Source: Aquabacterium sp. (GTDB lineage: Bacteria; Pseudomonadota; Gammaproteobacteria; Burkholderiales; Burkholderiaceae_C). Taken from it: a stretch of 44,293 bases of DNA. The position numbers and the translations under genes are program-made. A model generated the notes under the pieces. The model had not been told where the DNA came from, ran no database searches, and saw nothing but the letters and a program-made list of their open reading frames with translations. Shown one piece after another: positions 18,602 through 21,069 of the stretch (positions are counted from its first letter, which is position 1; each line of letters starts with the position of its first letter). The stretch lies in the NCBI GenBank assembly GCA_017994835.1, contig JAGOKC010000004.1:1-44293 (forward strand), in the 5' to 3' direction.

Positions 18602-19951
18602 TCAACGCTTGCGCGCTGCCATCCAGTTTTCGAGGTAGTGGATGTCGGTGCCGCCTTCGACGAACTTGGCGTCCACCATCAACTCGCGGTGCAGCGGGAT
18701 GTTGGTGTTGATGCCTTCGACCACGGTTTCCGACAGGGCGGTGCGCATGCGGGCCAGGGCCTGGGCACGCGTGTCGCCGTGCACGATGATCTTGCCGATC
18801 ATCGAGTCGTAGTTGGGCGGCACGAAGTAGTTCGTGTAAATGTGCGAGTCCACGCGCACGCCGGGGCCGCCGGGGGCGTGCCAGGTCGTGATGCGGCCGG
18901 GCGAGGGGATGAACTTGACCGGGTCTTCGGCGTTGATGCGGCACTCGATAGAGTGGCCGCGCAGAGCGACCTGACGCTGTGTGAAGGGCAGCTTTTCGCC
19001 AGCGGCCACGCGGATCTGCATCTGCACGATGTCCACGCCCGTGACCTGTTCGGTCACCGGGTGCTCCACCTGCACGCGGGTGTTCATTTCAATGAAGAAG
19101 AACTCGCCGTTTTCGTACAGGAACTCGAAGGTGCCCGCACCGCGGTAGCCGATCTTTTTGCAAGCGGCGGCGCAGCGGTCGCCCACCTTTTCGATCAGGC
19201 GGCGGGGAATGCCCGGGGCCGGTGCCTCTTCGATGATCTTCTGGTGGCGGCGCTGCATGGAGCAGTCGCGCTCGCCCAGCCACACAGCGTTCTTGTGCGT
19301 GTCGGCCAGGATCTGGATTTCGATGTGGCGCGGGTGCTCCAGGAACTTTTCCATGTAAACCTGCGGGTTGCCGAACGCGGCACCGGCTTCGCTCTGGGTG
19401 GTTTGCACCGCGTGCAGCAGGGCTGCTTCGGTGTGCACCACGCGCATGCCGCGACCACCGCCGCCACCGGCGGCCTTGATGATGACCGGGTAGCCGACCG
19501 TGCGGGCAATTTTGATGATTTCCTTGGGGTCGTCAGGCAGGGCACCTTCGGAGCCGGGCACGCAGGGAACACCCGACTTGATCATGGCCTGCTTGGCCGA
19601 GACCTTGTCACCCATGATGCGGATGGACTCAGGGGTTGGGCCGATGAAGGTGAAGCCGGACTGCTCGACACGCTCGGCGAAGTCGGCGTTCTCCGACAGG
19701 AAACCGTAGCCGGGGTGGATGGCCTCGGCGTCGGTCACTTCGGCGGCCGAAATGATGGCCGGCATGTGCAAGTAGCTCTGCGCCGAAGGGGCCGGGCCAA
19801 TGCACACGGCCTCGTCGGCGAGCTTGACGTACTTGGCGTCGCGGTCGGCTTCGGAATAGACGACGACGGACTGGATGCCCATCTCACGGCAGGCGCGCTG
19901 GATGCGCAGGGCAATTTCGCCCCGGTTGGCGATGAGAATCTTTTTAAACAT
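18602..19951 (-). CDS. accC: Acetyl-CoA carboxylase, biotin carboxylase subunit
   Basis: The 449-residue ATP-grasp enzyme carboxylates biotin on AccB, the first step of fatty acid synthesis. It has the biotin-carboxylase N-terminus [15 protein letters not shown], the glycine-rich ATP loop [11 protein letters not shown], the EKF and [14 protein letters not shown] motifs and normal length. The start at 19951 has GGAG 9 bases upstream. Upstream, another frame starts with a near-copy of the first 11 accC codons and overlaps this start by 8 bases. Which start the cell uses is discussed in the findings; only this one gives a full protein. Confidence 0.97.
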
Positions 19952-20060
19952 GGTGCTCGGCTCCATTGCCCTGTTGGGCTGCGCCCAACGCGCAATTTGG
20001 CTTCGCCGCAAGGCCTGCGGCCTTGTCGCCTCGGTTGGCGATCAGAATTTTCTTGAACAT
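19944..20060 (-). CDS. 38-residue leader frame starting with an accC N-terminus copy
   Basis: The frame starts at ATG 20060 with a strong ribosome binding site (GGAGG, 7 bases upstream). It reads [12 protein letters not shown], then leaves homology and runs on through the two palindromes as an alanine-rich tail. Its TAA overlaps the accC start by 8 bases (ATGTTTAA). It could be a translated leader coupling ribosomes into accC, or simply the relic of a partial accC duplication. Its position 15 bases after the accB stop is where the accC start lies in a simple accBC operon. No function is claimed. Confidence 0.5.
19973..20025. repeat. Pair of short palindromes in the accB-accC gap
   Basis: GTTGGGC-TGC-GCCCAAC (19973-19989) and CAAGGCC-TGC-GGCCTTG (20009-20025) are perfect 7-base inverted repeats with the same TGC centre, 19 bases apart. 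Such twin hairpins look like a REP-type element or a structured mRNA spacer. I see no further copy in the window. Confidence 0.6.
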
Positions 20061-20075
20061 GGCGAAACCTCCGCC

Positions 20076-20528
20076 TTATTCAATGACAAACAGAGGCTGG
20101 CCGTATTCGACAGGCTGGCCGTTCTCGACCAGGATCTTGGAGATGACGCCGTCCTTGTCCGCCTCGATCTCGTTCATGATCTTCATGGCTTCGATGATGC
20201 AGACAGCCTGGCCTTCCTTGACCACGTCACCCACCTCGGCAAAGGACTTGGCACCCGGGCTGGAGGCACGGTAGAAAGTGCCCACCATCGGTGAGGTCAC
20301 CACATGACCGGCTTCCACAATCGGGGCTGGGACCACCGGGACAGCTTCAACGGCAGCTGGTGCGGCAGCGACAGCCTGAGCTGCTTGGGGCGCAGCCTGC
20401 ATCATCACCACAGGGGCGGCACCCGCCTTGACGATGCGAACTTTGCCGTCGGCTTCGGTGATTTCGAGTTCGGAGACGTTGGACTCGGAAACGAGGTCGA
20501 TCAGGGTTTTGAGTTTGCGCAGGTCCAT
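20076..20528 (-). CDS. accB: Acetyl-CoA carboxylase, biotin carboxyl carrier protein
   Basis: The 150-residue carrier holds the biotin carboxylated by AccC and delivers CO2 to the carboxyltransferase. The C-terminal biotinyl domain has EAMKIMNE with the biotinylated Lys116 and the [10 protein letters not shown] start typical of BCCP. An alanine-, proline- and valine-rich linker lies between residues 36 and 75. The length is typical. It stands between aroQ and accC on the minus strand. Confidence 0.97.
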
Positions 20529-20619
20529 GATGTGTTGACTCCAGCAATAAGCGGCGAGCGACTTGCGCTCGAAAAAGAGGTGAGGGCGGACCTGCTTCTA
20601 TCGAAGAAGGTGGGGCCGC

Positions 20620-21069
20620 TCAATCGCGTGACGATGCGCCCAGACGGGTCAGGGCGGCGTCCAGGGCATGGCGATAACCGGCTGCACCCAGGCCGACGAT
20701 CACGCCTTCGGCGAGGTCGGAGAAATAAGAGTGATGCCGGAAGGGCTCGCGCCGATGAACATTCGACAGGTGCACCTCGATGAAAGGCAGGGCCACCCCC
20801 GCCAGCGCGTCGCGCAAGGCGATGCTGGTGTGGGTGAATGCCCCGGGGTTGATGAGGATGAATTGTGTCCCGTCGGTGCGGGCGGCGTGTACCCGGTCAA
20901 TCAGGGCACCTTCGTGGTTGCTTTGAAAGCAACTCAGCATGGCACCCTGTCGGGCGGCCTGTTCGGCCAGCGCGCTGTCAATCTGAGCCAGCGTGGTTGC
21001 CCCATAAACCTCAGGTTCGCGGGTGCCCAACAGGTTGAGATTGGGGCCGTGGAGGACAAGAATCTGCAT
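20620..21069 (-). CDS. aroQ: 3-dehydroquinate dehydratase, type II
   Basis: The 149-residue shikimate-pathway enzyme dehydrates 3-dehydroquinate. [20 protein letters not shown] contains the catalytic Tyr22, followed by [19 protein letters not shown] and the histidine motif IEVHLSNVH. The length is standard. aroQ precedes accB in many proteobacteria, as here, with a 91-base gap that shows no clear promoter or terminator. Confidence 0.96.

Follow-up and report, generated by a model that had tools for sequence, protein, structure and literature searches.

Why does a biotin carboxylase gene of an Aquabacterium strain appear to begin twice? The window, i.e. the whole stretch of 44,293 nucleotides that was analysed, carries accC at 18602..19951; this gene and all other window features located below lie on the minus strand. 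The product is the biotin carboxylase subunit of acetyl-CoA carboxylase (TIGR00514, 739 bits against a cut-off of 626.5; Biotin_carb_N and C domains). The first 34 bases of accC occur twice in the same orientation with a spacing of 109, once from 20060 (copy 1, 20027..20060) and once from 19951 (copy 2, 19918..19951), the latter being the accC start now in use according to sequence, ORF and repeat search. Five codons differ between the 34-mers (copy 1/copy 2: TTC/TTT, AAG/AAA, AAA/AAG, CTG/CTC, CGA/CGG), all five silently. Repeat search stretches the duplicate to 44 nt with 82% identity, the longest among 20 direct-repeat families shown for 3.5 kb. The gene ahead of the cassette is accB, coding for biotin carboxyl carrier protein (20076..20528; ORF; Pfam Biotin_lipoyl, 4.1e-26), and the accBC pair comes after an ORF at 20620-21069 which, judging by its motif, we take to resemble type II 3-dehydroquinase. 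The ATG of copy 1 follows the accB stop by 15 bases and opens a 38-codon frame (19944..20060) whose TAA overlaps the accC start; the accC ATG through the TAA takes up 8 bases, which puts the stop at +5. The better ribosome-binding site belongs to this upstream copy: GGAGG (20068..20072) has an anti-SD duplex energy of -9.0, against -5.6 for the last 20 nt before the true start, where GGAG (19961..19964) is a possible weak site. The 34-base repeat with its spacing and silent differences, the better site GGAGG, the 15-base distance from accB and the overlapping 38-codon frame had been noticed in the sequence-only reading of the locus and proved correct on the minus strand.

The copies are separated by a structured insert of 75 nt (19952..20026). 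It matches a covariance model of such inserts (see below) at G000:C145:19951-20029 with E 4.3e-8 and is the only strong copy in its own genome (next best E 0.097). The insert contains three hairpins, and the same hairpins are found in relatives with compensatory changes. Hairpin 1 (20010..20024) reads AAGGCC-GCA-GGCCTT, with the compensatory version AAAGCC-TTC-GGCTTT in L027. It is followed by a small middle hairpin, GGC-GAA-GCC (19999..20007), and by hairpin 2, GTTGGGC-GCA-GCCCAAC (19973..19989). Sharing its first base with hairpin 2, strand X, CAGGGCAAT (19965..19973), is the complement of accC codons 13-15, where its partner ATTGCCCTG is located (19907..19915). Pairing of X with the gene is seen in other members as well. 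In the window this duplex has 9 pairs only, and the predicted minimum-energy fold of the window RNA uses pairs other than X:gene.

A layout in which a structured insert of some 75-110 nt separates two gene starts recurs in many genomes. The double-start pattern with a gap of 51-111 bases matches 47 of the family's 399 genomes and 30 of 141 genera, and a pattern scan with one genome per species yields at least 119 stretches with a double start (104 in Betaproteobacteria, 4 in Oceanospirillales, 1 in Hydrogenophilia, 10 unplaced). Among 30 accC loci of the window's genus, the layout is present in the window and in G023 (L027), G004 (L048) and G011 (L049); the hairpins of L027 and L048 are altered in sequence with pairing retained. 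A fifth accC carrier of the genus, G030 (L305), comes from the insert-model search. Carriers include Acidovorax temperans (L110) and Variovorax boronicumulans (L184). Arrays of at least two units occur at L145, L183, L132, L086, L088 and L073 and in G394, the one of L145 (Caldimonas mangrovi) having three units. Tandem units at L145, L183, L132, L086, L088, L082 and L276 are nearly identical, and the leader usually ends on the next start. In the drafts with L055 and L057, the contig end falls inside or just past such an array.

The assembly that contains the window is a draft in 162 contigs, which would suit an assembly or sequencing artefact, and an assembly error had been put forward as one way in which the first account of the duplicate could fail. 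The same arrangement is, however, present in independent assemblies, including the single-contig genomes G080, G136, G193 and G213, so both chance and faulty assembly are dismissed. For the family the artefact explanation is refuted, and we give it practically no weight. The window holds one member of an apparently undescribed cassette family at biotin-carboxylase gene starts; a recurrent structured element at many such genes is beyond the view of a single-window reading.

Which copy is the older one can be read from relatives that lack the insert. In G032 and G035, the nearest by AccC (99 and 98% identical), accC begins where the window has copy 1. Element-free nearest relatives carry the ribosome-binding site GGCGGAGG, like the window's, and GGAGG is at the same place in the element-free loci L022 and L023. 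Since copy 1 thus has the position and the ribosome-binding site of the accC start in L022 and L023, it is the old start. As judged from this empty-site comparison, the upstream copy is ancestral, and the insert plus downstream copy are the addition. The proposal that a fragment of a diverged accC allele had been recombined in upstream therefore had the direction wrong. The accB-accC gap, whose comparison across relatives had also been suggested, contains the duplicate in several members of the genus and lacks it in the nearest ones, G032 and G035. The position of window ATTGCCCTG reads ATCGCCCTG in L022 and L023. An empty site is also available for a second gene, where the element-free orthologs L330 and L331 can be set against L300.

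Does the insert by itself lead to the same genes? Covariance model R1 was built from 78 inserts, the representatives of 168 units, with the duplicate excluded. It has matches in 61 of 170 genomes of the family at E 0.05, the weakest of these being chance; in 15 of 42 genomes of the window's genus at E 0.01 (antisense only in G003); and, at E 0.001, in 2 of 7 genomes of a second genus and 16 of 260 genomes across the order. Across the class, a single genome of 369 has a match under stricter filters (E 1e-4), namely the window's own, yet the pattern scan includes four Oceanospirillales. Of 89 R1 rows, 24 have no carboxylase start right after the match; 6 of these are in arrays or at a contig end, and the 18 located elsewhere have E 0.0088 or worse, except L257. 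Two further rows (L268, L312) are under the threshold of 20 identities for copy 1, which leaves 63. Together with 13 of 15 new matches from the order search they make 76 model-found units; L328, an internal array unit, and L316, which lies at a carboxylase start and failed the filter, are out, and L311 is excluded from both the 63 and the 76.

With the exception of L257 and the antisense L311, every R1 match examined with E <0.008 has a biotin-carboxylase start directly after it or belongs to an array at one. L257 (G000:C77:14249-14329, E 2.6e-4) has no carboxylase next to it and was taken as a chance match. Antisense matches on carboxylase starts (L293, L311) are expected because X resembles the reverse complement of the gene. 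Matches also precede starts of another type, e.g. MKKVLIANRGE, and besides AccC the carriers comprise further members of the biotin-carboxylase superfamily, of which some are divergent or larger. Some carrier genes are presumably MCC and PCC, labels that we assign by sequence type; the L078 and L134 proteins score below every curated cut-off. These two, divergent or larger biotin-carboxylase proteins with 38-44% identity to AccC over the compared stretch, have accC-type inserts. As R1, although blind to the duplicate, again finds carboxylase starts, the element belongs to biotin carboxylases as far as searched, and the duplicate accompanies it.

The predicted structure of the insert is retained across the family. 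Hairpin 2 has double changes at all six consensus pairs among 78 sequences. A shuffle test covering the set with spacing 118 (n=30, ungapped) gave hairpin 1, the middle hairpin and hairpin 2 more paired cells and double changes than 500 of 500 shuffles; the middle hairpin is paired in 94% with 24 double changes, reached by 0 of 500. Strand X, situated just 5' of the ribosome-binding site, is the reverse complement of gene codons 9-15 in most members. X:gene covariation beats 500 of 500 shuffles in the sets with spacings 118, 121 and 115 (n=30, 36 and 21), a significance that shuffles overstate since the sequences are related, and in these sets it is also seen when third codon positions are taken by themselves. 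The loci in these sets are mainly pattern-selected. At spacing 109, the class of the window, paired cells were reached by 27 and double changes by 210 of 500 shuffles; the corresponding figures are 41 and 208 for spacing 108, and 36 and 20 for spacing 110. Among the 152 of 168 units in which the gene follows copy 2, mainly pattern-selected loci, the X:gene duplex score is 14.2 with own partners and 12.1 with partners permuted within class (0 of 2000 permutations reach the former), and X is mainly paired with the gene in 135 of 152 predicted folds. The score is 6.96 for 25 element-free accC starts of the window's genus. Palindrome correction is a DNA-level process, and the complementarity of X could be kept at the DNA level by it, not by selection. 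Evidence for a further helix, AAATTGC/GCGATTT, is mixed: of 500 shuffles, none attains its paired cells and 47 attain its double changes. We make no claim for it.

Covarying hairpins that are tied to carboxylase genes, together with nine alignment columns at 90% or more, are also what a riboswitch or attenuator for biotin-dependent carboxylases might look like, the insert sensing a ligand or factor and the leader being part of the readout. Against such a sensor speak the absence of any fully invariant column among the 78 inserts, the wide variation of hairpin sequences and a patchy presence at carboxylases of different kinds. Rfam has no match in window 19500-20700 up to E 1; at eight loci it gave three matches only, all under the gathering score and outside the units, so that no Rfam family speaks for a sensor here. 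Alternation of X between copy 1 and copy 2 was considered and rejected: X:copy 1, the sole alternative pairing tested, was reached by 161 (paired cells) and 418 (double changes) of 500 shuffles and has 0.4 expected pairs in predicted folds. We regard a riboswitch as improbable.

The frame opened by copy 1 is conserved in a manner that points to translation. In all 76 model-found units it is open through the insert to -25, and in 57 of them the leader stops at -5..+9 of the true start. Stops at -5..+9 occur in 0 and 4 units in the other two frames, which have stops before -25 in 64 and 27 units. With shuffled inserts the frame stays open in 66% and stops at -5..+9 in 38%. Leaders are 29-48 codons long. 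The 76 units form 17 clusters by insert, and the stop at the start is kept in 11 of these; among the 19 leaders that stop outside -5..+9, 17 do so 12-23 nt upstream and one at +16, while one has no stop in the stretch read. For the 168 units, which unlike the 63- and 76-unit sets are mostly pattern-selected, spacing is 1 mod 3 in 130 and the leader stop is at +5 in 125.

Ways of making this stop differ by gene: ATGA, TGATG, and ATGTTTAA or ATGTTTGA, which give the +5 stop. The last two result from TTT as the second codon of the gene, a codon that 114 of the 117 units whose spacing is 1 mod 3 have there, versus 15 of the 35 others. ATGA overlap is used in 5 units whose gene begins with ATGA (ATGATC or ATGAAG). 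At L301 (G027:C288), copy 1 agrees with the element-free orthologs L343 and L345 (ATGATCAAA, ATGATCAAAAAAATC) and the gene starts with ATGCTTAAA; residue 2 is thus encoded by ATGATC (Ile) in copy 1 and relatives and by ATGCTT (Leu) in the gene, and the changed residue supplies the leader stop TAA, ATGCTTAA. Within arrays, 11 of 14 internal units have leaders that stop at +5 of the next ATG, and array units ending on the next start would make relays. The aligned position of copy 1 has no start codon in 6 of 63 units, two of which (L228, L230) have an in-frame ATG one codon upstream, and leaders of L241 and L254 are frameshifted. A similar 3' end, GCGATTGAGCCGAGGCAC, is common to L242, L248 and L287 of an accC-type subgroup, where the leader stop TGA lies 14 nt before the gene without overlap. 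Since the frame through hairpin 2 varies by insert type and the stop stays, conservation of the whole leader peptide is a weak idea; the first 11 codons of the leader look constrained. The other suggestion of the sequence-only reading, a translated coupling leader, gains support from this comparison of open frames, stop positions and differing overlaps.

Another explanation holds that the duplicate is a dead by-product, a functionless accC fragment duplicated by recombination with a related strain. The purely silent differences in the window had earlier been used as an argument against drift in a dead copy; across the family this argument fails, as copy 1 and copy 2 differ in 281 codons, 219 silent and 62 amino-acid-changing. 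Such changes, along with the few frameshifts, fit a dead copy. However, roughly three quarters of differences in an unconstrained copy are expected to be amino-acid-changing. Between related loci, copy 1 has 732 silent and 316 changing differences (1048) and the gene copy 729 and 177 (906), counted over 195 pairs of loci that are not independent; the proportion in copy 1 is below the unconstrained expectation. Frame constraint is not lost, given that every one of the 76 leaders is open, and a by-product is also disfavoured by the recurrence of the unit, its covariation, the conserved leader frame and the restriction to a single gene family. It is highly improbable in our estimate. Copy 1, the old start, is by these codon comparisons constrained, yet not frozen. 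Copy 1 and the gene often disagree at residue 3 (MFHK versus MFTK at L310; also L120, L123 and L154), which looks as if the present start of the gene had been taken from another carboxylase gene.

Further, the distribution of inserts suggests movement between genes. On the accC tree of 29 loci, the four carriers need four changes, the same as shuffled labels; this tree holds 29 of the 30 loci (L024 misfits the start pattern), has 13 open forks of 26 and is without carrier G030. Over all units, insert identity tracks gene identity only weakly (rho 0.23 and 0.10, values attained in 0 and 3 of 500 permutations). Two carboxylases of G382 (L078/L087) share 38% protein identity and 92% insert identity. 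Within the window's genus, the inserts of accC and of other carboxylase genes agree over their first 36 bases with a mean identity of 0.77 (45 comparisons), against 0.52 between accC of the genus and accC elsewhere (355 comparisons), a contrast that is approximate because genus membership was taken from a hand list and L196, counted as another genus, has the insert of the genus's L303. The 3' part gives 0.41 and 0.44 in the same comparisons and is not shared like the 5' part. The 5' module of the window is 0.972 identical to the Rhizobacter accC unit L131, 0.944 to Paucibacter L122, and 0.972 to the other-carboxylase units L299 and L300 of its own genus. Because L131 and L122 are as close, or nearly so, as the paralogs within the genus, the unit has probably moved between species too. 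The non-orthologous genes that carry similar inserts are all biotin-carboxylase genes.

Scattered presence, tandem arrays, and inserts that are alike across non-orthologous genes (L087/L078) and across genes within a genus all favour a selfish, target-specific mobile element, non-coding and with no regulatory role for the host. It would invade the most conserved spot of carboxylase genes and persist by way of its new ribosome-binding site and start, the leader frame being kept harmless. Several results argue the other way. Inserts are more alike where proteins are >0.9 identical (class means 0.66-0.87), so that part of the pattern is vertical. Hairpin sequences vary with structure retained, and the leader frame is retained though exact loss through recombination between the repeats looks easy. 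The insert has no match among viral contigs and none in plasmids (one query), and no carrier, coding sequence or transposition or recombination enzyme was seen in the inserts read. We consider a purely selfish element unlikely.

The reading that we prefer, with a probability of roughly 0.6, is a leader cassette that spreads between carboxylase genes and acts by termination-reinitiation coupling, as predicted from sequence. The sequence itself shows the old start surviving as copy 1, with the structured insert after it and then a second start, at which the gene begins. Ribosomes would load at the old start and translate the leader. Where X is paired with codons 9-15, the gene's own ribosome-binding site and ATG would be placed inside a hairpin loop; a ribosome translating the leader may open this hairpin, where present, and restart at the overlapping ATG. 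The gene would then be translated largely by termination-reinitiation, and enzyme output would follow translation of the leader. The unit would move between carboxylase genes, probably by recombination through the shared start sequence, with X fitted to the new host gene. Carboxylase starts give homology to both ends of the unit, which makes recombination the simplest candidate route of spreading. Mean ribosome-binding strength in the family is -5.1 for the old and -6.8 for the new start. The second start thus has the better site on average and could be used without coupling, the window being the reverse; degree of coupling should accordingly differ among members.

A related but more doubtful possibility is that parasite and translational regulator are one, i.e. 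that the conserved biotin-carboxylase start is the homing site of a mobile element, non-coding and about 75-110 nt long. This element would duplicate the start, add a ribosome-binding site and derive its 3' strand from the complementary sequence of the target; the old start would become a coupled leader, and several units in a row could form arrays of such leaders.

Biotin carboxylases control entry into several acyl-CoA pathways and, in the case of accC, into fatty-acid synthesis. If the leader cassette acts as proposed, these enzymes would have a naturally recurring, removable dial that works by re-routing their translation, and the cassette would show a route to a coupled leader: the old start is kept, a structured insert is added and translation restarts. 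If the unit moves on its own, it would be a gene-free mobile element aimed at a single protein motif. Array forms let coupling be tested by comparing unit count with output.

Both coupled leaders and small palindromic elements are familiar; we know of no combination of them that duplicates a start and is target-specific. REP and Rickettsia palindromic elements are small structured non-coding DNAs present at many places, in some genes in frame. To our knowledge they occur beyond any single gene family and lack the start of a target gene. In bicistronic designs, translation of the leader opens structure at the second start. Literature search, with preprints and most subscription journals outside its scope, gave no recognised description of the present element among the papers listed, and the words biotin and carboxylase are absent from the main text of PMC8632094 and PMC6429828. 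A 2013 study of frame transitions (PMC3711429) gives, in its accessible part, GeneTack cluster 697472870, 'Biotin carboxylase', with predicted translational coupling in 128 genes of 44 genera; 75% have the ATG of the second frame within 10 nt of the stop of the first. Unlike for our cassette, duplication of the start is not mentioned in that part of the study, and the first frame may simply be accB. The ilvB-II leader (PMC10272879), as portrayed in the accessible part of the paper, resembles the cassette in that a conserved uORF in a structured leader controls a metabolic gene. Its mechanism is transcription attenuation, the peptide having many branched-chain amino acids, and, unlike the cassette leader, it is not presented there as a duplicate of the gene start. 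Gene pairs coupled by termination-reinitiation have an upstream stop that overlaps the next start (Huber et al. 2019, PMC6728339, accessible part), and ATGA and TGATG are found among cassette units too; the upstream frame of the cassette is, however, a leader formed from a copied gene start with a structured insert, not a second gene. The leaders of bicistronic designs (PMC5995908, PMC11602170, in the parts accessible) are short and translated and precede the target gene, as we propose for the cassette. In contrast to these designs, the cassette is natural, occurs in one enzyme superfamily only, duplicates the start and appears to spread between genes.
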